DNA from: Lactobacillus taiwanensis DSM 21401
Lineage (GTDB): Bacteria > Bacillota > Bacilli > Lactobacillales > Lactobacillaceae
Length of the DNA stretch: 64,000 nucleotides
NCBI RefSeq assembly: GCF_001436695.1
Contig: NZ_AYZG01000014.1
Coordinates: forward strand, 1-64,000
Direction of reading: 5' to 3'
Position 1 is the stretch's first letter. Each line of letters begins with the position of its first letter. The notes beneath the pieces were generated by a model. That model had not been told where the DNA came from. It ran no database searches and worked only from the letters and a program-made list of their open reading frames with translations. The translations under genes and the position numbers were made by a program. Below, piece after piece: positions 2,192 through 62,725 of this stretch.

Positions 2192-3334
2192 TTGGGTAAA
2201 ATACTTGACTACGTTCGCTGGCGGGGTGACTTAACATTAGATCGAGAACCATTTAATAGTTTAGATGCTGGTTTGTTTGCCGCTTTTGCTTATCTTCCAT
2301 TCGATCCCAGTGTTAAGGATCATACGCTCGAAGTAGCTACAAAACGTTTAATACAAAAAAAGACACTTATTCCTTCAGATAAACTTGAAGCTCAATTAAT
2401 AAATCTAAGTGATCGATATAAAAATATGCGATTTTTAGACTGGTCGCATCTTTCTCAAAAAAAGCCACCTGTACAATTTACAGCGATGACAATTGAATTA
2501 GATCCTGAAACCATTCTAGTCGCCTATCGTGGAACTGATGGATCGATGGTTGGTCTCAACGAAGATGTAGATATGAGTTATCAGCCAGAAATTTTTGGTC
2601 AAAGTGTTGCTGCAGATTATTTAGATAGAATTGCACAAACTTATCCCGACAAAAAAATATACACTACCGGTCACTCAAAAGGCGGAAATTTTGCAGCTTA
2701 TGCATTATACGCAGTATCACCGAATATTCAGGATCGAGTAATCAAAGCTTACAGTTTTGACGGTCCTGGTTTCATGAAAGAAATGTATGACCGGATAGAA
2801 TTTCAACGCGTTATTCCAAAAATGATTACTTACGTACCTGAAGGCTCAATTTTTGGTATGATGCTTGACCATCCAGAACGTGTAATAGTTGTTAAAAGTA
2901 GAATGAAACACTTAATGAAACAACATAATCCTTTACACTGGGAAGTAGCGCGAAGTAGTTTCGTTATGGCACCAGGTTTAAGTAATGCAAGCAGAATTAT
3001 TAGAAGTACATTTATTTCCTGGAATACCAAAATTCCACGTGAAAAACGTGAAGCATTTTGGTTGGCATTCTTTACTGCATTAGAATCTCATAAAATCACT
3101 GAAGCTAGTCAATTAACAACTAACAAAATTCGTGGTGCCATTCAATTTAGCCATGCTTATCTTTCGCTTGATCCAGACGCACGTTTAATTGCTAATGAGA
3201 TTATCTCTGATATTACGGCAACTGCTCGCCAATACATCAATCTTCCCTTCCTTAGTCATAGTGAACATTTAGAACCACTGGGTAATGATTCAAGTAAGGG
3301 GCCCATCGTTGACGATTCTTATGATGGTAGTTAG
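2192..3334 (+). CDS. DUF2974 (Mbeg1-like) alpha/beta-hydrolase family protein
   Basis: This 380-residue protein has a nucleophile elbow GHSKGGN near residue 160, the GxSxG pattern of lipases and esterases. A preceding strand reads LVAYRGTDG, a common oxyanion-side motif in lipase class-3-like folds. The arrangement matches the DUF2974/Mbeg1-like family found in many Firmicutes. No signal peptide is visible, so it is probably cytosolic. The substrate is unknown. The start is TTG at 2192, preceded by GAAAGGATT. The gene stands alone between two terminators and is convergent with the ROK kinase. Confidence 0.8.
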   Translation: MGKILDYVRWRGDLTLDREPFNSLDAGLFAAFAYLPFDPSVKDHTLEVATKRLIQKKTLIPSDKLEAQLINLSDRYKNMRFLDWSHLSQKKPPVQFTAMTIELDPETILVAYRGTDGSMVGLNEDVDMSYQPEIFGQSVAADYLDRIAQTYPDKKIYTTGHSKGGNFAAYALYAVSPNIQDRVIKAYSFDGPGFMKEMYDRIEFQRVIPKMITYVPEGSIFGMMLDHPERVIVVKSRMKHLMKQHNPLHWEVARSSFVMAPGLSNASRIIRSTFISWNTKIPREKREAFWLAFFTALESHKITEASQLTTNKIRGAIQFSHAYLSLDPDARLIANEIISDITATARQYINLPFLSHSEHLEPLGNDSSKGPIVDDSYDGS

Positions 3335-3339
3335 TTATT

Positions 3340-3355
3340 TGTTTCATGTGAAACA
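3340..3355. promoter_or_regulatory. parS-like ParB-binding palindrome
   Basis: TGTTTCATGTGAAACA is a perfect 16-bp palindrome except at the centre and matches the Firmicutes parS consensus TGTTTCACGTGAAACA at 15 of 16 positions. It lies about 16 kb from oriC in a gap between convergent genes. ParB binding is inferred. Confidence 0.65.
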
Positions 3356-3360
3356 ACAAA

Positions 3361-3393
3361 AAAGTCAACTTCAAAATTGAAGTTGACTTTTTT
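3361..3393. terminator. bidirectional terminator
   Basis: A 12-bp stem (3361-3372 with 3379-3390) with a 6-nt loop has an A tract on one side and a T tract on the other. It separates the convergent DUF2974 and ROK genes. Confidence 0.9.
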
Positions 3394-3409
3394 ACTAATC
3401 GTACAATGA

Positions 3410-4294
3410 TTATTTATTTTTTAATGCTTCTTTAGCTAATTCAAAATCACCTAAAGTTGCGGAGCCATTATCTGCAACTGCTGGGCGCACAATCAATTCG
3501 TCAACGTCTGGAGTTGCAACATAATTATTGTTAAATTCCTTGAAGAAGCCACGAACTTGGACCAAGTCTTGATCATTTAAAACTGATCCACCAACAACCA
3601 TTACATCAGGGCGCATAGTCATGTAAGCATTAAATAATAACTGTGCTACATAATAGGACACATAGGTGAATACTTTATGGTCTCTAGGTAATTTTTCACC
3701 TGGAATACCCGTTCTTCCTTCTAGCGAAGGACCCGCTGCCATTCCTTCAACACACTTATTGCCATGGAATGGACATTTTCCAGTATAGTTATCGCCTGGA
3801 TAAGGAGTTACTAACATATGCCCCATTTCTGGATGGTTATTTAAGCCAATGAATTTACCTGCTTGAACAGCACCTGCACCAACACCAGTACCAATTGTTA
3901 CATAAAAGTAAGTTTTAGAATCATCTTTGCCACGAGCAATATATTCGCCATAACAAGAAGCATTAACGTCAGTAGTCATTACAACAGGAATACCAAGTTC
4001 TTTTTCAAAAGTACCTTTAACATTAGTTCCAGACCAACCGCGTTTAGGTGTATCCAAAATGTATCCAAAAGTTCTTGAATTCGGATTAATATCAATTGGA
4101 CCAAATGTTCCAATTCCCAAAGCAGATACCGGATGTTCCTTAAAGAATTCTACACTCTTAGCTAAAGTTTCTTTTGCATCTGTTGTTGGAATTCTTTTTC
4201 TTGCTACAATTCCACCATTTTTAGTATCTTGTACTGCCAAAATAAATTTGGTTCCACCAGCTTCAATACTACCTACATATTTATTTTCTACCAT
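3410..4294 (-). CDS. scrK: ROK-family sugar kinase, probable fructokinase
   Basis: This 294-residue protein begins with the ROK phosphate-binding segment GSIEAGGTKF. It has a TDVNASCYGEY catalytic-base region near residue 105, and a Zn-binding cluster around residues 155-182 with ligand pattern H...CPFHGNKC. ROK kinases of this length in Bacillus and lactobacilli (GmuE/ScrK type) phosphorylate fructose to fructose-6-phosphate, though mannose or glucose remain possible. It is cytosolic. The ATG is preceded by AGAAGGTG. Its promoter overlaps a cre-like site (4352-4380), which suggests CcpA control. It follows dnaB on the same strand after 95 nt, but with its own promoter. Confidence 0.85.
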   Translation of the reverse strand: MVENKYVGSIEAGGTKFILAVQDTKNGGIVARKRIPTTDAKETLAKSVEFFKEHPVSALGIGTFGPIDINPNSRTFGYILDTPKRGWSGTNVKGTFEKELGIPVVMTTDVNASCYGEYIARGKDDSKTYFYVTIGTGVGAGAVQAGKFIGLNNHPEMGHMLVTPYPGDNYTGKCPFHGNKCVEGMAAGPSLEGRTGIPGEKLPRDHKVFTYVSYYVAQLLFNAYMTMRPDVMVVGGSVLNDQDLVQVRGFFKEFNNNYVATPDVDELIVRPAVADNGSATLGDFELAKEALKNK

Positions 4295-4351
4295 TCAACT
4301 TACACCTTCTCATTTGATTGTTTCTTAAAAAGATAGACTTTTAACTCTTAT

Positions 4352-4380
4352 AGTATAGCTAATTAATGAAACGCTTACAA
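4352..4380 (-). promoter_or_regulatory. promoter of the ROK kinase with overlapping cre-like site
   Basis: On the minus strand TTGTAA (4375-4380) and TATACT (4352-4357) are separated by 17 nt. The -35 hexamer overlaps TGTAAGCGTTTCAT (4366-4379), which matches 12 of 14 positions of a cre consensus. Carbon-catabolite repression by CcpA is inferred from this overlap. Confidence 0.6.
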
Positions 4381-4389
4381 ATCATTTTC

Positions 4390-5763
4390 TTAAGATTCAC
4401 TATGAGTATAATCTAGATTCGAAAAACGATTATATGGTTTCGAGAACATCAATTTAACTGTTCCACGTGTACCAGAACGGTTTTTTTCGATAATTACTTC
4501 AACTTCGCCATTATCTTCTTCTGCTTCAACTTCGCCTTCATCATCTTCATCACGCTCATCACGGTAATAATCATCACGATATAAGAAAGCTACAATATCC
4601 GCATCCTGCTCAATAGACCCCGATTCACGAATATCTGATAATACAGGACGCTTATCTTGACGCTGCTCAACAGAACGAGAAAGCTGTGATAAAGCAATAA
4701 CGGGAATATGCAATTCTTTAGCTAGTTTTTTAAGCTGTCTAGAAATTGCAGAAACTTCTTGCTGACGTGATTCACTACGTGGTCCTTCAATCAACTGTAA
4801 ATAGTCAATTACAATTAATCCTAAATTGCCTTTTTCTTTAGCTAATCTACGTGCTTTAGCACGAATTTCGCTCATTTTAATTCCAGGAGTGTCATCAATA
4901 TAAATACTTGTATTATCTAATGATCCAGCTGCAACAACTAGTTTACGCCATTCTTCATCAGTTAACTGACCAGTTCTAAGATGCTGTGAGTCAATCAAAC
5001 CTTCTGAAGCTAGCATTCTTTGAACCAATTGCTCAGCTCCCATTTCTAGTGAAAACATTGCAACCGTCTTATCGGTTTTAAGTCCAACAAATTGTGCAAC
5101 ATTCAGCGCAAAGGCAGTTTTACCAACCCCAGGACGAGCAGCTAAAATGATTAACTCATCATCATGAAAACCAGTAGTCATCTTATCTAATTCAGAAAAT
5201 CCCGATGGAAGTCCTGTAACTGTATTCCCATCATCTGGAATAGAGTTAATTTCCTCCATAGTCGTGTTTAATACATCATGAATAGACTTAAACCCACCAC
5301 TTGCATTATCCTGTGAGACGCCCATTATTTGACTTTCAGCGTCATCTAGAATGTCTGTTACATCATCAGAACCTTCAATCGCATTTTGAATAATTCTCTG
5401 ACTAGTAGCAATCAAATTTCTAAGAATTGCCTTACGTTTTACAATTTTAGCGTAATAAGTAACGTGTACTGCCGTCGGCGTTGCCATTGACAATTCCGTA
5501 ACATAAGCAATTCCGCCAATATCATCTACCTGATTATTTTTCTTTAACTCATCTTGCAGAGTAATAGGGTCAATTACTTCCTCACGATCTGAAATATTAA
5601 GCATGGCCTGAAATACAATACGATTTGCATGTTCATAAAAATCATCAGGCTGCAATACATCCGATGCATCAATAATTGCTTCGGGATCTAAAAAGACGGC
5701 CCCTAGGACCGCCTTCTCTGCTTCACTATCATGGGGAATTTGTTGAGAAACAACATTATCCAT
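4390..5763 (-). CDS. dnaB: replicative DNA helicase
   Basis: This 457-residue protein has the usual size of bacterial replicative helicase (called DnaC in Bacillus). It has an N-terminal primase-interaction domain (residues 1-110, starting IPHDSEAEKAVLGAVFLDPE), a linker, and a RecA-like motor with Walker A ARPGVGKTAFALN near residue 215. Later motifs are LIVIDYLQLI (Walker B) and DIRESGSIEQDAD. It forms the hexameric helicase at the fork. It starts 2 nt after the rplI stop, so it is the last gene of the gdpP-rplI-dnaB operon. No convincing terminator lies between it and the ROK gene. An acidic insert rich in Asp/Glu sits near residues 405-422. Confidence 0.97.
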   Translation of the reverse strand: MDNVVSQQIPHDSEAEKAVLGAVFLDPEAIIDASDVLQPDDFYEHANRIVFQAMLNISDREEVIDPITLQDELKKNNQVDDIGGIAYVTELSMATPTAVHVTYYAKIVKRKAILRNLIATSQRIIQNAIEGSDDVTDILDDAESQIMGVSQDNASGGFKSIHDVLNTTMEEINSIPDDGNTVTGLPSGFSELDKMTTGFHDDELIILAARPGVGKTAFALNVAQFVGLKTDKTVAMFSLEMGAEQLVQRMLASEGLIDSQHLRTGQLTDEEWRKLVVAAGSLDNTSIYIDDTPGIKMSEIRAKARRLAKEKGNLGLIVIDYLQLIEGPRSESRQQEVSAISRQLKKLAKELHIPVIALSQLSRSVEQRQDKRPVLSDIRESGSIEQDADIVAFLYRDDYYRDERDEDDEGEVEAEEDNGEVEVIIEKNRSGTRGTVKLMFSKPYNRFSNLDYTHSES

Positions 5764-56928: not shown

Positions 56929-59115
56929 CTAATTCCTTTCTATCATTTTTTGAGCAAAGTGAGTTTTTAATGCTAAATAAAAAATTAAAAGCTGTAAAAT
57001 TAAATTTAAAATTTCTATTAGAACTCCAATCTTACTGTGGCTAATTAAGATAATGAGTAAAGCTCCTCCATTAATTGTGCTAATCATAATGAGTGGTAGA
57101 GTGTAAAGCTGTCTGAATGAGAAACCTAAAAACTGTTTAATCAGTAGAGTCTCATAGTTAAGCTTTTTGTAAGTAAAGGCTAAGACACCTACAAGTAAGA
57201 TTAAGAGAATAATCAATAATATAATCACCAAACCGAAGATAGCTAGAGTTTGCCAGAGTGATTTTTGAACCCCATCTATGTACTGCTGGACAGTCGCAAA
57301 GTTCAATTTATTGTCTGCTAAGTGATATTTAGATAAATTATCTGGAGAAAGAACTTGTTTACGCACTGCAGAATCTTTAAATTTAAACGAACCTCCTAAT
57401 CCCGATGCAAATAAGTTACCTATTTCTACAAAAGAAAAGTTTTCTGGGCTGGCAACATAGATAATTGGAGAGTTGTTTAGCGTTGGTTCTTGCGGAGTAT
57501 TGTTCCAAAGAAAGATAGATTTTTGAGGATAATAGGTTATAAATTTGAATTTACGAGATCGAGTAAATTTAGTTGAAATATCTGAAGATCGAATGCCTTC
57601 TTGCATACTTTCTTTTATATAAGAGATAGTTTTTCTTTTCTCAGCTCCGGAAATGTTATCAGGTAAGTAAATTACACGAATTCCATTTTGAGTAGCTTTT
57701 AATACTTGATTGGAGAGGGTAAAGTTAATCGTTTTTAGGTAGTTGGGAGAGGCAGTTAAGATAGTGAAGGGATGAGAGGGCATTTCCTTATAGCCATCTG
57801 TCATTTGTTCAATATAAGTTTTAGAAGCATAAAAAGAGTTCACGAAATAAACTCCATCTTTATTAGCATAATGCCGGTAAAGATCATAGAAATCGCGATT
57901 GATCTTAGAGGAGGTGTCGGCGTAAGAACGTACACTATCATTACCACTATCCATTGAAGCGAGAACTTCCATTTTAGAAACTGTATGCCATTGATGAGCT
58001 TGAGTTGCAGTTTCTGAAATTGATTTTGCAGGCTGGTCAATGTAAAGACAGGTACCAATAACAACGCTCGTTAGTAACAAATAAAATCCAAAAAAGAAAG
58101 AATAAATTAATTTTTTAGGATAATATCCCTTAATTAGAGCAATATTTTTTGAAATAATAACTAAGCTTGCAGCACAGAAAAAAGTAAGACTAAAAATAAA
58201 TGACGTAACAATTCCTGTCTTAATTCCTAAAGTAATGAAGCTAAGAGGAAAACGTAGATTAAAAATTGTTGAAAATACACAAAGAAAAAGTGCAGTCAAA
58301 CTCAGGATAACTAAATATGGTTTAAAGATTTTAAACAAGATATCTTTTTTCGACCAACCTAATAAGATAAGATTTCCATATTCTTTGAGATTGTTTAAAA
58401 AAACTATTAGGAAAGAAGCTAAAAGTCCACAAGAAGTTAAGATAATTCCTAAAATAATGCTATCTTTAAGCAGGTCACCATTGCTAGCACTCCCGCTTTG
58501 AATAAATGTGAAGTCGCTTTTTTCGATGTCAGTTATTTTATGAAGCTGATTAATAATATTATCATAGGTCTGTTTATCGTTTACGCCAACAAGTTGATAG
58601 CTTCCACGAAGAGTATCTTCATTTTTTACTAGGCTTTCTAATTTTGAAACAGTAATTAGTGGAGAAAACCAAAAGCTTGAAATTGGAGCAAGTTGATTAA
58701 TGGTTCCATTAGCTTGACCAATACTAGCATTAGGATTAGAAGACTGGAGAACTTTGTTAATCTTAGACTTGTCTAATAGGGATTGGCCTCCAAAACTAAG
58801 TTGGACATCGATAGTTTTAGGAGTTCCCATAACACCAATATTAAATAGGTCGTCATTATTTTCTTTACGAACTAAGAGAAAGTTCTTCTGGTGAGAAACC
58901 TGATTCAAATAAGCTAGAATCTCATCTTTCTTTGTCGGTGGAATGTTATTAAGATAAAGAGTATAGGGGGACTGGTCGTTTAAATAATTGGTCCAGGTAG
59001 AAATGTATTGATCGCGTAAGCCTAAAAGGAGCCATAGAAAAATAAGAAAAGTTTGTAATATAAGTAAAGCGTACCCGACAAGAGAGGTACGCTTTGTTAA
59101 CGTGCGCTTATTCAT
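56929..59115 (-). CDS. bacteriocin-associated integral membrane protein (DUF1430 type)
   Basis: This 728-residue protein has an N-terminal membrane helix (about residues 13-33), a large extracytosolic domain, three central helices (about 215-360), a second large domain and three C-terminal helices. This layout of FtsX/MacB-like permeases is typical of the lactococcin-972-associated DUF1430 family. ATG 59115 is chosen because it overlaps the bacteriocin stop (TAATG), implying coupling; the frame extends 16 codons further inside the bacteriocin gene. It partners the ATPase at 56275. Confidence 0.85.
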   Translation of the reverse strand: MNKRTLTKRTSLVGYALLILQTFLIFLWLLLGLRDQYISTWTNYLNDQSPYTLYLNNIPPTKKDEILAYLNQVSHQKNFLLVRKENNDDLFNIGVMGTPKTIDVQLSFGGQSLLDKSKINKVLQSSNPNASIGQANGTINQLAPISSFWFSPLITVSKLESLVKNEDTLRGSYQLVGVNDKQTYDNIINQLHKITDIEKSDFTFIQSGSASNGDLLKDSIILGIILTSCGLLASFLIVFLNNLKEYGNLILLGWSKKDILFKIFKPYLVILSLTALFLCVFSTIFNLRFPLSFITLGIKTGIVTSFIFSLTFFCAASLVIISKNIALIKGYYPKKLIYSFFFGFYLLLTSVVIGTCLYIDQPAKSISETATQAHQWHTVSKMEVLASMDSGNDSVRSYADTSSKINRDFYDLYRHYANKDGVYFVNSFYASKTYIEQMTDGYKEMPSHPFTILTASPNYLKTINFTLSNQVLKATQNGIRVIYLPDNISGAEKRKTISYIKESMQEGIRSSDISTKFTRSRKFKFITYYPQKSIFLWNNTPQEPTLNNSPIIYVASPENFSFVEIGNLFASGLGGSFKFKDSAVRKQVLSPDNLSKYHLADNKLNFATVQQYIDGVQKSLWQTLAIFGLVIILLIILLILLVGVLAFTYKKLNYETLLIKQFLGFSFRQLYTLPLIMISTINGGALLIILISHSKIGVLIEILNLILQLLIFYLALKTHFAQKMIERN

Positions 59116-59414
59116 TAGCGACAGTTCCAATAAGCAGTTGCGTGAGTACGAGGGGCGATCCAAGTATTAGCTACTGCTAAAGTACCCCTGCCTTTCCATC
59201 CAGACCAAACGCCGTTTGCAGTTGTACAATGTTGATAAATATGGCTTTGAACTTTTGAATAAGACCAAACTCCTGCTGTTCTACCATGTTCCCAGTATAC
59301 AGGCGTTCCCCTATAGTAGACTGTTTGAGATGCCGCAAAAGCTGTTCCGGATGTGGTTAGTCCAAGAGTAACAAGACCTAAAACCGCCCATTTTTTTAAA
59401 GATTGTTTTTTCAT
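59115..59414 (-). CDS. lactococcin-972-like bacteriocin precursor
   Basis: This 99-residue precursor has a Sec signal (residues 1-27, ending TSGTAFA) and a predicted mature part of 72 residues starting ASQTVYYRGTP. The mature part is rich in Trp, Tyr, Gly and His, with GVWSYSKV, NGVWSGWKGRG and a C-terminal AYWNCR, the pattern of the lactococcin-972 family. It has two Cys (in YQHC and WNC), which could form a disulfide; lactococcin 972 itself, as I recall, has none. Family members block septum formation through lipid II. ATG 59414 follows GGAGGAAAG; an in-frame TTG lies five codons earlier. Its stop overlaps the membrane-protein start. Confidence 0.87.
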   Translation of the reverse strand: MKKQSLKKWAVLGLVTLGLTTSGTAFAASQTVYYRGTPVYWEHGRTAGVWSYSKVQSHIYQHCTTANGVWSGWKGRGTLAVANTWIAPRTHATAYWNCR

Positions 59415-59451
59415 TTTTCTTTCCTCCAAAAATATACAATTTAATTACTTG

Positions 59452-59478
59452 TTAAAAATTTGGGATAGTAGGATACAT
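59452..59478 (-). CDS. 8-residue ORF, candidate leaderless signalling peptide
   Basis: The minus strand has ATG TAT CCT ACT ATC CCA AAT TTT TAA, encoding MYPTIPNF. AAAGGAG lies 7 nt upstream, one of the best ribosome sites in the window. The ORF lies between an rgg gene and the bacteriocin gene, 37 nt before the bacteriocin start. In Streptococcus pyogenes the 8-residue leaderless peptide SIP (MWLLLLFL) activates the Rgg-family regulator RopB, so size and setting match. The peptide is less hydrophobic than SIP. It could also be a simple upstream ORF affecting bacteriocin translation. Confidence 0.6.
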   Translation of the reverse strand: MYPTIPNF

Positions 59479-59521
59479 AGAATATCTCCTTTCCTTTTCT
59501 GATTCTGATAAGATAACTAAA

Positions 59522-59527
59522 ATTATA
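59522..59527 (-). promoter_or_regulatory. -10 element of the bacteriocin operon promoter
   Basis: A perfect TATAAT on the minus strand lies about 44 nt upstream of the 8-codon ORF. The -35 position reads TTATTT, a poor match, which suggests dependence on an activator such as the neighbouring Rgg. Confidence 0.55.
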
Positions 59528-59540
59528 CGGACTATATTAT

Positions 59541-59576
59541 AAAAAAATAAGAATGCTCGTATTTGAGCATTCTTAT
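59541..59576 (-). terminator. terminator of rgg
   Basis: A 12-bp stem ATAAGAATGCTC/GAGCATTCTTAT with a 6-nt loop overlaps the rgg stop codon and is followed by seven T residues on the minus strand. Confidence 0.9.
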
Positions 59577-60385
59577 TTGGGCAATAAAGAACTAATTCGA
59601 GTATCTCCGCATTCTTCCAAGAGAGATTTAATAGCCTGTAGTTTAATAAAATCTTTCTTTAGAAAAGCTTTGAAGTATAAATTGATTATTCTGTAATGGC
59701 TTAAAGAGGGGTCAATAGAGAGATTATCAAGTAGGGTAAAGCATTGATACCAAATTTTTTTGTTAGGGAAAGAATGTGTGTAATAAAGATAATTAAGAGT
59801 GACAGATGAAATAAGTTTTTGAACTTTTAGAGAGAAAGTACTAATATTTGAATATCTTTTGATGACACTTGTCATATGAATATCTAAACTTTCTGGAGAA
59901 AGAAACATTGTTGCGCTTCCAAAGAAGGAAAGCATCATTAAATCGTTTGACCAATTTTCATTTTTGAAAAGTTGAAATTGAATATAATTTTTTACTTCAC
60001 TAGGAATATCTTTTACATTTTGAATTAGCATAGCTTTTAAAAGAATTATTTGGTAAATCGTGAATTTTGATAAAGACATTTTTTCAGATTTACCAAATAA
60101 ATAGTTTAACTCATTTGTATTTTGTTCAAAAAATGCAGTCTTTAATTCATGTAGTAGCTGTGTTTCAGAATCTTTTCCTGTTTGTGGTGATAATACTTGC
60201 TTAAAAAAGAAGTCAGGAGAGATATGGTGAAATTCAAGGAGCTTGAGTAAAACCGAGGCAGAAATATCATGTAAATCTTTCTCAACTTTACCATATTGAG
60301 ATCGAGACATGATATTTGCTGCCATTTCTTTTTGAGTTAAATTTAGTTTTAAACGTTCATCTTTTAAAGCTTCGCCAATTGTCAT
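59573..60385 (-). CDS. Rgg/GadR/MutR-family regulator
   Basis: This 270-residue protein has an N-terminal XRE helix-turn-helix (IGEALKDERLKLNLTQKEMA, ISRSQYGKVE-type segment) and an all-helical TPR-like C-terminal domain (about residues 70-270), the plan of Rgg regulators that bind short peptide pheromones. It stands between the bacteriocin operon and a divergent pair of membrane-protein genes, and so is the likely regulator of one or both. The ATG follows TTGGAGAATGAACG. A remnant of a second rgg gene lies at 51228. Confidence 0.87.
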   Translation of the reverse strand: MTIGEALKDERLKLNLTQKEMAANIMSRSQYGKVEKDLHDISASVLLKLLEFHHISPDFFFKQVLSPQTGKDSETQLLHELKTAFFEQNTNELNYLFGKSEKMSLSKFTIYQIILLKAMLIQNVKDIPSEVKNYIQFQLFKNENWSNDLMMLSFFGSATMFLSPESLDIHMTSVIKRYSNISTFSLKVQKLISSVTLNYLYYTHSFPNKKIWYQCFTLLDNLSIDPSLSHYRIINLYFKAFLKKDFIKLQAIKSLLEECGDTRISSLLPK

Positions 60386-60410
60386 CGTTCATTCTCCAAA
60401 ATAAAATTTA

Positions 60411-60489
60411 TTTTTAGATTAAAACATTATTAATAAAATATTGCAAATATTTTCTAAGATGATATTATTTTAGATAAAATAATCTAAAA
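60411..60489. promoter_or_regulatory. repeated TTTTAGAT elements in the divergent rgg promoter region
   Basis: TTTTAGAT (60468-60475) and ATCTAAAA (60482-60489) form an inverted repeat with a 6-nt spacer. A further TTTTAGATTAAAA lies at 60412-60424. They sit between rgg and the divergent membrane-protein pair and may be Rgg-binding sites. Confidence 0.4.
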
Positions 60490-60548: not shown

Positions 60549-61106
60549 ATGGACGATAAAAGATGGATTGAACTAGCAAAAAGAAAAAAGCAAGATAAGT
60601 ATTTTGGCATTATCAGCTTGTTGATTGCTTTGATGATGGTTTTCTTCACATTGAAAAATATTGGTTGGCTACTTACTTTCATTGTCGTAGCAGTTATTCT
60701 CTACTACTGGATTGATGTGGAACAGATGCTTGAAGATAATAAGGCAATTAATAGGACGCAGAAGATTATTTTTATTATCCTTGGAATAATTTATGAGCTG
60801 ACTAGTATTGTTTTTGCTTTCATTAATTTAGATTATTTATTACTAGCTTTTGGCATTATAAGTGCAGGATATTTAGGCTTTAAGACAAATACGGTATTTC
60901 GTAAAGATTTGAAGAATAAAAAACTGAAATTTGGGGAAAGTATAGTCGCAATTTGTCTCGGGCTTGGAGCTGCAATCTTGCTTATATTACTTACTCCTAA
61001 AGACATTCTTTGGCTCTTCCTTTTGATTTTTGCTTTAGCCTATAATCTGATTCACCTAATTGTCAGAATTAAGGTTGAACATGACGGAACTAACCGAAAA
61101 CTATAG
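60549..61106 (+). CDS. uncharacterised small membrane protein, paralogue 1
   Basis: This 185-residue protein has about five membrane helices. The cytosolic-looking N-terminus is DDKRWIELAKRKKQDK, and conserved points are LKNIGWLLTF, IYY/LYYWIDVEQMLED, AGYLGFK and LIHLIVRIKVEHDGTNRKL. I do not recognise a family. The next gene encodes a clear paralogue. Their position beside an Rgg gene and a bacteriocin operon makes an immunity role possible, but nothing in the sequence shows it. AAGGAAGGTGAG precedes the ATG. Confidence 0.7.
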   Translation: MDDKRWIELAKRKKQDKYFGIISLLIALMMVFFTLKNIGWLLTFIVVAVILYYWIDVEQMLEDNKAINRTQKIIFIILGIIYELTSIVFAFINLDYLLLAFGIISAGYLGFKTNTVFRKDLKNKKLKFGESIVAICLGLGAAILLILLTPKDILWLFLLIFALAYNLIHLIVRIKVEHDGTNRKL

Positions 61107-61127: not shown

Positions 61128-61673
61128 ATGCGCCCAGACTTAATTATTAAAAATAGAAAGTTAAACCATATGATCGGTGTGATTGGGATCATTCTGAGTA
61201 TAATCATAATCTTTTTAGCTTTAAAAAATTTAAGTTGGTTGTATCGATTAGTGGGCGTATGTGGAATTATTTATTATCTTATTGATATGGAACAAAAATT
61301 AGAAGAAGACCATGTGATTACGAAAATAGTGCGAATTTTTATGGTTGTAATTGATATTTTTTACATTGTATTTAGTATGATTTTTGCTTTTGTAAACGTT
61401 GATCTTTTACTAAGACTATTTGGAATTGCGGGCTCAGGCTATTTAGGATTTAAGTTCTATCAATTAGTTAGAGAGGAAATTCTTAATAAGAATCTGAAGT
61501 TAGCTGATAGTTTAGTAGCAACTTTTTTAGGCGTTTTTCCAGCTATTTTACTAATTATTTATGCGTTTATTGCGTTTTGGATAATTTTATTAGCATTAAC
61601 TTTGCTATATAATTTAGTCCATTTGATAGTTAGAATTAAAATCGAACGTGGTCCAACGAATCGACAATTCTAA
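61128..61673 (+). CDS. uncharacterised small membrane protein, paralogue 2
   Basis: This 181-residue protein is a paralogue of the preceding gene product. It shares LKNLSWLYRL, IIYYLIDMEQKLEED, AGSGYLGFKFY and the end LVHLIVRIKIERGPTNRQF, with the same five-helix layout. The two genes lie 21 nt apart and form an operon ending in a strong terminator. The tandem pair probably arose by duplication and then diverged widely. Function is unknown; bacteriocin immunity is one possibility from context. Confidence 0.7.
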   Translation: MRPDLIIKNRKLNHMIGVIGIILSIIIIFLALKNLSWLYRLVGVCGIIYYLIDMEQKLEEDHVITKIVRIFMVVIDIFYIVFSMIFAFVNVDLLLRLFGIAGSGYLGFKFYQLVREEILNKNLKLADSLVATFLGVFPAILLIIYAFIAFWIILLALTLLYNLVHLIVRIKIERGPTNRQF

Positions 61674-62233: not shown

Positions 62234-62725
62234 TTAATTATTTTTTCTTTCTTTAATTGCAAGACGAATCGAATTTATTACCCGGGCAATAATGATCAAT
62301 ATCCCTACAAATAATGAAAGATAGCCTAATGGAACTAAGAAAAAGTTTTCGTGTAAAACACCGCTACGATCAATGTAAGAAACAGAAGTAGCACTAATTA
62401 AGAAGAAAATAATTCCTAAAATAATGAATACACTCCCGATAATAGTAGTGACCATATTAAATTTTTCCGCACGTGTTCTTTTACCATCATTAATCAAAAT
62501 TTGCTCAATTTTATTCATCTTTTTATCTTCTAAAATTAATTCATCGAGGGAAACATCAAATGTTTCTGCGATCAAATAATCATTTCAAAATCTGGAAGGT
62601 TACGATTATTTTCCCAGTTAGAGATCGCCTGTCTAGTTACATTCAGTTTCTTGGCCATCTCTTCCTGAGTTAAGTTCTTTTCTTTTCTAAGGCATTTTAT
62701 TTGTTCGTTGAATTTCTTTTTGCCT
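62234..62725 (-). pseudogene. broken XRE-family regulator with C-terminal membrane helices
   Basis: The minus strand encodes an XRE helix-turn-helix (LTQEEMAKKLNVTRQAISNW, then ENNRNLPDFEM). The frame then meets TGA at about 62576-62578. The continuation IAETFDVSLDELILEDKK lies in the next frame and runs to 62234 with two membrane helices. A one-base deletion in a T run near 62578 explains the shift. No ATG, GTG or TTG opens the first part: AAG occupies the expected start after GTGAGGC. Regulators with such a membrane tail are common in lactobacilli. Either the gene is dead or the sequence has an error here. Confidence 0.75.

Follow-up and report, generated by a model that had tools for sequence, protein, structure and literature searches.

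A candidate leaderless pheromone between an Rgg gene and a bacteriocin-type operon of Lactobacillus taiwanensis, and its look-alikes across the genus

What does an open reading frame of eight codons do between the gene of an Rgg-type regulator and a bacteriocin-type operon? This question is raised by a 64,000-nucleotide stretch of the Lactobacillus taiwanensis DSM 21401 genome (here, the window), in which a first-pass annotation had proposed that the ORF encodes an unprocessed pheromone of a new type, which with the adjacent Rgg activates the operon. Comparison across lactobacilli favors the proposal, through a syntenic peptide, recurrence in the genus and the spacing of a palindrome from a promoter without a -35, while the claim of novelty goes too far. 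We consider it probable that this ORF (here, like others of its kind, a usORF) encodes a leaderless pheromone, which would be bound by the adjacent Rgg and is predicted to turn on the promoter of the very bacteriocin-type operon that carries its ORF. The locus comprises the following features.

60385-59573, minus strand: rgg, Rgg-type receptor/regulator of 270 aa with an HTH and a helical repeat domain (HTH_3, PDB profiles, AlphaFold, Foldseek)
59545-59578, no strand: palindrome of 34 bp (arms of 14 bp; TGCTC-N6-GAGCA core at 59554-59569), the proposed operator of Rgg and intrinsic terminator of rgg
59527-59522, minus strand: -10 element TATAAT of the proposed usORF/operon promoter, without a good -35
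59492-59486, minus strand: ribosome site AAAGGAG
59478-59452, minus strand: usORF MYPTIPNF, proposed leaderless pheromone (L. hominis counterpart, genus-wide excess)
59414-59115, minus strand: bacteriocin-like secreted protein of 99 aa (ORF with a signal-like N-terminus; no PF09683 or TIGR01653 match)
59115-56929, minus strand: bacteriocin-associated membrane protein, a permease (TIGR01654, 7.3e-14, below the curated cut-off)
56922-56275, minus strand: ABC ATPase of bacteriocin-export type (TIGR03608, 4.7e-68, the best family, below the curated cut-off)

The usORF reads ATG TAT CCT ACT ATC CCA AAT TTT TAA on the minus strand; it has no leader, and AAAGGAG precedes its ATG by 7 nt. The first-pass annotation had placed it between rgg and a lactococcin-972-like gene, and its coordinates and letters are correct. 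The usORF stop lies 37 nt before the bacteriocin ATG, and the stop of the bacteriocin gene is overlapped by the ATG of the membrane-protein gene, as read from the sequence. Also borne out is the perfect -10 without a good -35: TATAAT ends 43 nt before the usORF ATG, and the hexamers 16-18 nt from it are TATTTT, TTATTT and CTTATT, for which reason we see no good -35. A sigma-70 scan did not include the usORF promoter among its predictions, and a second TATAAT starts 14 nt farther upstream (by eye). The palindrome lies just 3' of rgg, with its center 34 nt before the -10. Its core, TGCTC-N6-GAGCA, has one exact copy in the 64 kb and in the 1.87-Mb genome, and a terminator scan assigned the palindrome a terminator form, the sole such site in 59100-60450. 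The bacteriocin gene had earlier been labeled lactococcin-972-like, but its 99-aa product matches no lactococcin-972 model (Pfam PF09683 searched to E = 1, NCBIfam TIGR01653 to 0.1), so the label rests on the operon partners of TIGR01654 and TIGR03608 type.

Adjoining rgg on the plus strand are genes for two tandem, mutually alike membrane proteins of 181-185 aa (60549-61106 and 61128-61673), without a Pfam or NCBIfam match at 1e-3. An HTH regulator with a membrane tail (62234-62720, minus strand) seems to be frameshifted near 62575, as judged by eye.

Is the regulator an Rgg? It matches HTH_3 (1.2e-9) and, by profile, Rgg2, Rgg3, Rgg144 and NrpR in the PDB. AlphaFold, run on 14 sequences, returned an all-helical model (pLDDT 87.6, pTM 0.65), for which the Foldseek matches at E <0.001 were Rgg2 (the best), PrgX, a Listeria regulator, NrpR and Rgg144, at TM ~0.4-0.5. 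TIGR01716 did not match it at E 1e-3 and did match 6 of 10 relatives (A1 members). The earlier identification as an Rgg is therefore sustained by HTH_3, profile and fold and qualified by the missing TIGR01716 match. NrpR, the receptor for a leaderless communication peptide (LCP) in Streptococcus salivarius, is 52% identical to RopB and contacts its peptide through N152 and N192, according to the part of PMC12186490 drawn on here. N192 aligns with N198 of the window Rgg, a position that is Asn in 28/28 Lactobacillus rows; N152 aligns with Ser157, which is Asn in L. hominis and in 11/28 Lactobacillus rows, and the NrpR pH sensor H144 aligns with Asn147. Of the Rgg/RRNPPA hallmarks, the window protein has the N-terminal HTH, the C-terminal helical domain and the pocket asparagine N198, with Ser157 in place of the second asparagine.

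Plasmid records searched with the window Rgg yielded only distant Rggs, among them locus L144 on an L. paragasseri plasmid. Phage records gave no match, and a genome-contig scan with this single Rgg gave 128 pattern matches, none of them confirmed. A PDB search with a paralogue from the same genome found nothing. In a 39-row tree built without RopB itself, the Lactobacillus Rggs form a starred clade apart from the SHP receptors, NrpR and four RopB-like plasmid receptors, and the window Rgg does not group with the RopB clan; NrpR and the four RopB-like receptors group together (92/89, not starred). For sisterhood of the two LCP-bearing groups, the AU p was 0.104 with L144 grouped in and 0.005 without it; a variant restricted to NrpR and L. 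sakei (p 4.6e-5) breaks up the RopB-like group and counts for little. A SIP-like peptide pattern had three matches in 395 Lactobacillales genomes, none of eight codons, and no Rgg was seen in those stretches.

Absence of the ORF from homologous loci was to count against a pheromone, according to the first-pass annotation. The syntenic L. hominis locus (L032) encodes MYPTFPRFP in the same spot with its own ribosome site, beside an Rgg 51% identical to that of the window. The codons for Pro3 and Thr4 differ between the two ORFs; the residues are the same. By sequence, the order rgg, palindrome, -10 without a -35, usORF, bacteriocin-like gene, permease and ABC ATPase is the same in L. hominis, where the genes behind MYPTFPRFP code for a PF09683 bacteriocin (1.2e-4) and a TIGR01654-type protein (3.7e-10), and a TIGR03608-type ATPase begins after them. 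The two loci also share a neighboring peptide deformylase, whose family was confirmed for the window, and, by eye, a permease. The downstream proteins are of the same type without being alike (BLASTP E 0.34 for the permeases and 3.0 for the bacteriocins), and thus conservation is stronger for receptor and peptide than for the cargo. The L. hominis permease is split over two ORFs and the bacteriocin there shows no obvious signal start; the operon may therefore be in decay.

The Rggs of the window and of L. hominis form a starred pair, with L003 as sister. This third closest relative (L003/L033, same Rgg, 36% identical) has the palindrome and a secreted-protein gene, with no usORF and no ABC genes. 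In L033, from an uncultured Lactobacillus MAG (3001-4691), the secreted-protein gene immediately follows the palindrome TGCTCAAATTCGAGCA, and we saw neither a permease nor ABC genes within the fetched stretch. ORFs resembling the tandem membrane proteins of the window adjoin rgg in L032 and L033 as well (by eye). The Rgg of L002 (genome G013) is identical to that of L032, and the 98%-identical cluster of the window Rgg has 162 member sequences.

Do other Rggs of the genus have such an ORF? We collected 102 Lactobacillus loci and, after removing five without a full-length Rgg and three duplicates, retained 94 distinct rgg genes. A usORF was defined as 6-15 codons on the same strand as rgg, starting 50-130 nt 3' of it, with a Shine-Dalgarno match of at least 5 bases. 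Twenty of the 94 genes had one and 74 did not, compared with a mean of 2.6 and a maximum of 7 in 200 dinucleotide shuffles; the opposite strand gave 0 and the upstream side of rgg 1. For alignments by peptide class we used a list, curated by eye, of 25 usORF-bearing Rggs out of the 94, from which L016, L054, L055, L062, L074, L078, L082 and L095 were set aside. At L047, L049 and L055 the filter overlooked additional ORFs of MFIP- or IPWYP-like kind. In ten usORF pairs, pS was 0.44 and pN 0.13, values that are indicative only because the pairs were picked for similar peptides and reuse L012, L044 and L051.

The peptide classes, assigned by eye (including the placement of MIYTLPVILG/N, MVIEFPILV and other rows), go with Rgg clades. 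PW[FY]PL-like peptides (MYPLFPF, MYPWFPL, MDPWYPL, MFIPWYPL and MGPWFPL) belong to Rggs in one starred clade, LPVLP-like peptides (MIIVTLPILP, MIIVTLPVLPKSN, MVIVVLPVLSN and MVIIVLPVLPHDFNK) to Rggs in another, and MDLLRxxIII-like peptides stand beside Rggs of a third. Seven held-out loci (L148, L150, L153-L155, L174 and L178) supplied further candidates after rgg: MDLLRNVIIILPEP, MSLALFKPVIIIVTD, MLWELPVIIN, MWEWEPPVLP, MDWWTTLPIITA, MDLLKTVVIILPDP and MDWFQFPFIG. Such look-alike regulator-peptide pairs suggest a wide candidate signaling repertoire across the genus.

Several usORFs lie ahead of bacteriocin or lanthipeptide genes. MGPWFPL, in another species, is followed by a clear lactococcin-972 bacteriocin (PF09683, 3.8e-11) and then by the genes of a TIGR01654 permease and of an ATPase of TIGR03608; this is the layout of the window, beside an Rgg only 27% identical to the window Rgg. 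The L108 bacteriocin matches both PF09683 and TIGR01653. Behind MIIVTLPVLPKSN, at locus L110 in the window's own genome (G000:C3), come LanB (Lant_dehydr_N, 1.7e-60), LanC and an ABC exporter. Behind MFIPWYPL are a RamC-like kinase and a LanC-like protein, and behind MYPWFPL an ATP-grasp peptide maturase (TIGR04187, 1.4e-30, below its cut-off) and transporters. Some other usORFs have ABC exporters or a LanC-like gene behind them; the gene after MVIVVKPTF is on the other strand, and that after MNLLRGLIIIMPDP is oxidoreductase-like (both by eye). This survey covered L112-L114 in part.

Two of these loci are further Rggs of the window's genome. L110 (G000:C3:65264 onward) is the second, with the palindrome TTTGCAAATTTGCAAA and class I lanthipeptide-type genes behind it, which make it a second candidate LCP-controlled cluster. 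The third, L049 (G000:C4:97745-98533, minus strand), has MFIPCYPL with a weak ribosome site and the palindrome GTGTTAAATTTAACAC; the genes behind it look eroded by eye when compared with the MFIPWYPL loci L106/L107.

The spacing between palindrome and -10 recurs at other Rgg loci of the genus. Among 67 non-redundant loci, 36 had a dyad score of at least 5; with at least 5/6 matches demanded of the -10, the distance from dyad center to -10 was 33-36 nt in 21 of these 36, while nine other windows of offsets gave 1-8. A second selection placed the -10 at 33-36 nt in 20/37 loci (random offsets: mean 3.7, maximum 11). The same rule applied to a held-out set of 41 loci (40 further Rgg loci and L144) found 9 of the 18 dyad-bearing loci at 33-36 nt and 1-3 in ten other windows; this set contains loci that resemble each other (L149/L180, L147/L177, L154/L175 and L151/L153/L181), L168 and L041 seem to be one locus, and at L169 the frame is poorly located. 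L002 has TATAAT at offset 35 though its dyad, at 4.8, is below the 5.0 cut-off. Just below it too is L144 (4.9; GAGTCAAATATGACTA, offset 34, TATAAT, AAAGGAGG, MKPEDVVIIVIKG). Where there is a palindrome and no usORF, a gene starts near the usORF position in L003, L015, L026, L028, L029, L078 and L094, as expected if the palindrome promoter is the receptor's target; at eight other such loci the same filter found nothing at that position. In L005/L120, the stop of the usORF MVIVPEPYGLIPEIKLYK is immediately followed by an inverted copy of TTTTCAAATTTGATAA, the dyad found behind rgg, so that two candidate operators flank this usORF.

The letters of the palindrome tend to follow the recognition helix of the Rgg. 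SR[SA]QYGK goes with GCTC-N6-GAGC in 3/3 rows, TKS[YF]YSK with GTGTC-N6-GACAC (one row, L101, having an imperfect GAGTC half), TKSHYSK with GTGTT-N6-AACAC, SVSQYSRVE with TTTGCAAATTTGCAAA and SPAQYSRIE with TTTCATATATGAAA; the held-out, mutually close TKSYYSK receptors L149 and L180 again have GTGTC-N6-GACAC. A Mantel test of helix against operator gave r 0.343, reached by 0/5000 permutations, and 0.203 (16/5000) with C-terminal similarity held constant. C-terminal similarity itself correlates at 0.424, so the helix-operator signal is partly common descent, and the palindrome-to-promoter distance is the stronger evidence. We conclude that the palindrome is likely an Rgg operator, which here would double as the terminator of rgg.

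These data bear on three other explanations of the locus. Repressors exist among streptococcal Rggs, and the peptide could be a signal for an Rgg that represses until the peptide removes or converts it, in the manner of Rgg3. Rgg3 is related to the window Rgg by profile and fold, and a palindrome near -46 alone cannot tell activation from repression. Against a repressor are the promoter itself, with its perfect -10 and no usable -35, and the position of the palindrome, which at the scored loci is upstream of the -35 region and not over the -10; we regard repression as unlikely.

The usORF could instead be a leader peptide that works by attenuation, ribosome stalling or translational coupling, since it comes first in the transcript, shortly ahead of the bacteriocin gene. 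Yet the only terminator-like site nearby precedes the usORF, the RNA spanning usORF and bacteriocin gene shows no more structure than its shuffled versions (z 0.84), and the two Rfam matches are both far below gathering scores, on which grounds we rejected an attenuation leader. As related peptides also stand ahead of quite different genes, we give a leader function of any of these kinds very little credence. Chance is harder still to believe. Such an ORF turns up in about 2.8% of shuffled regions downstream of rgg (2.6/94), and the palindrome could on its form be a terminator of rgg and nothing else, but we reject a chance ORF with a mere terminator in view of the L. hominis peptide, the genus-wide excess, the fixed palindrome-to--10 spacing and several palindromes elsewhere that are AT-rich dyads with little or no loop.

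Under the preferred reading, a leaderless pheromone with an activating Rgg, MYPTIPNF would be translated, leave the cell and be re-imported, a step that six SBP_bac_5 proteins, our candidates for it, could serve. It would then bind the C-terminal groove of the Rgg, which, probably as a dimer, would sit on the palindrome centered near -46 (the offset of 34 plus the usual -12). The peptide-bound Rgg may make up for the missing -35 and recruit polymerase. As first cistron of the operon that it controls, the usORF would make the circuit self-reinforcing at high density, and the palindrome, being also of rgg terminator form, would separate receptor from pheromone expression.

How does this compare with known systems? 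Aggarwal et al. 2023 (PMC10518010) extended LCPs to Lactobacillaceae, and mention members of the class that contain proline, polar or charged residues. To call the window peptide a new type for the family, as the first-pass annotation had it, is thus too strong. The receptor filter described there required a TIGR01716 match, and TIGR01716-positive relatives of the window Rgg might already be in its supplement. The titles and abstract starts of the open-licence literature yielded no description of these Lactobacillus systems or peptides.

On the parts of PMC10518010 and PMC12186490 consulted, the window shares with RopB-SIP and NrpR-NIP a usORF for eight residues, preceded by a ribosome site and adjacent to the gene of an Rgg-type receptor, and a peptide adjoining its target operon. 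With NrpR-NIP of S. salivarius, an LCP system with an antimicrobial target (PMC12186490), it further shares a palindromic operator ahead of the -35 of the peptide promoter and the equivalent of the pocket asparagine N192. It differs in that its receptor belongs to a separate Lactobacillus clade, its palindrome also ends rgg, and its usORF follows rgg in the same direction, whereas the LCP genes that those parts describe are divergent from the receptor. LCPs are typically hydrophobic, mostly aliphatic and aromatic; the window peptide (Tyr, Ile, Phe, Met plus two Pro, Thr and Asn) is Pro/aromatic instead of mostly aliphatic, and PMC10518010 notes deviating LCPs with proline. Rgg/SHP systems (Rgg2, Rgg3, Rgg144) have receptors of the same family by profile and fold; the window ORF, of eight codons, is unlike a propeptide with leader and cleavage site, and the receptors are apart in the tree. 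Lactococcin 972 operons likewise combine a small secreted protein with a TIGR01654-like permease and a TIGR03608-like ATPase, but the window protein matches neither PF09683 nor TIGR01653, and its operon has a usORF first and rgg ahead. Taken together, the window system is best read as a putative member of the published LCP class whose receptor belongs to a separate Rgg clade of Lactobacillus. On the Latilactobacillus sakei plasmid pL13-1 (L142), the gene of one of the four RopB-like receptors in the tree lies beside lactocin S and lanM with a divergent 9-codon ORF, MYLIGLFLL, that has a ribosome site; it is apparently a classical LCP for lactocin S in the published divergent layout.

More broadly, and with only slightly more conviction than doubt, we propose that Lactobacillus has its own large Rgg clan, apart from the RopB clan, in which many rgg genes have a palindromic operator of their own at the 3' end and then, at a fixed distance, a promoter that depends on an activator and a ready-made pheromone of 7-15 residues. 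A cell would then hold several insulated channels, often wired to bacteriocins or lanthipeptides; helix, operator and peptide class would change together as a readable code, and the module would be kept while its cargo is exchanged. The window's genome has three such candidate systems, one with MYPTIPNF, one with MIIVTLPVLPKSN and a decaying one with MFIPCYPL, and no two of them share an operator. We know of no trigger for many bacteriocin and lanthipeptide clusters of lactobacilli. If the proposal is true, the trigger of a cluster could be read from the DNA beside rgg and bought as a short synthetic peptide, so that silent antimicrobial clusters would become directly testable. These loci also offer more material on how a signal-less peptide exits the cell, an open question for the whole LCP class as the cited part of PMC12700828 puts it. 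With operators, receptors and peptides in matched sets, the genus would be a good system in which to study the evolution of insulated peptide channels.
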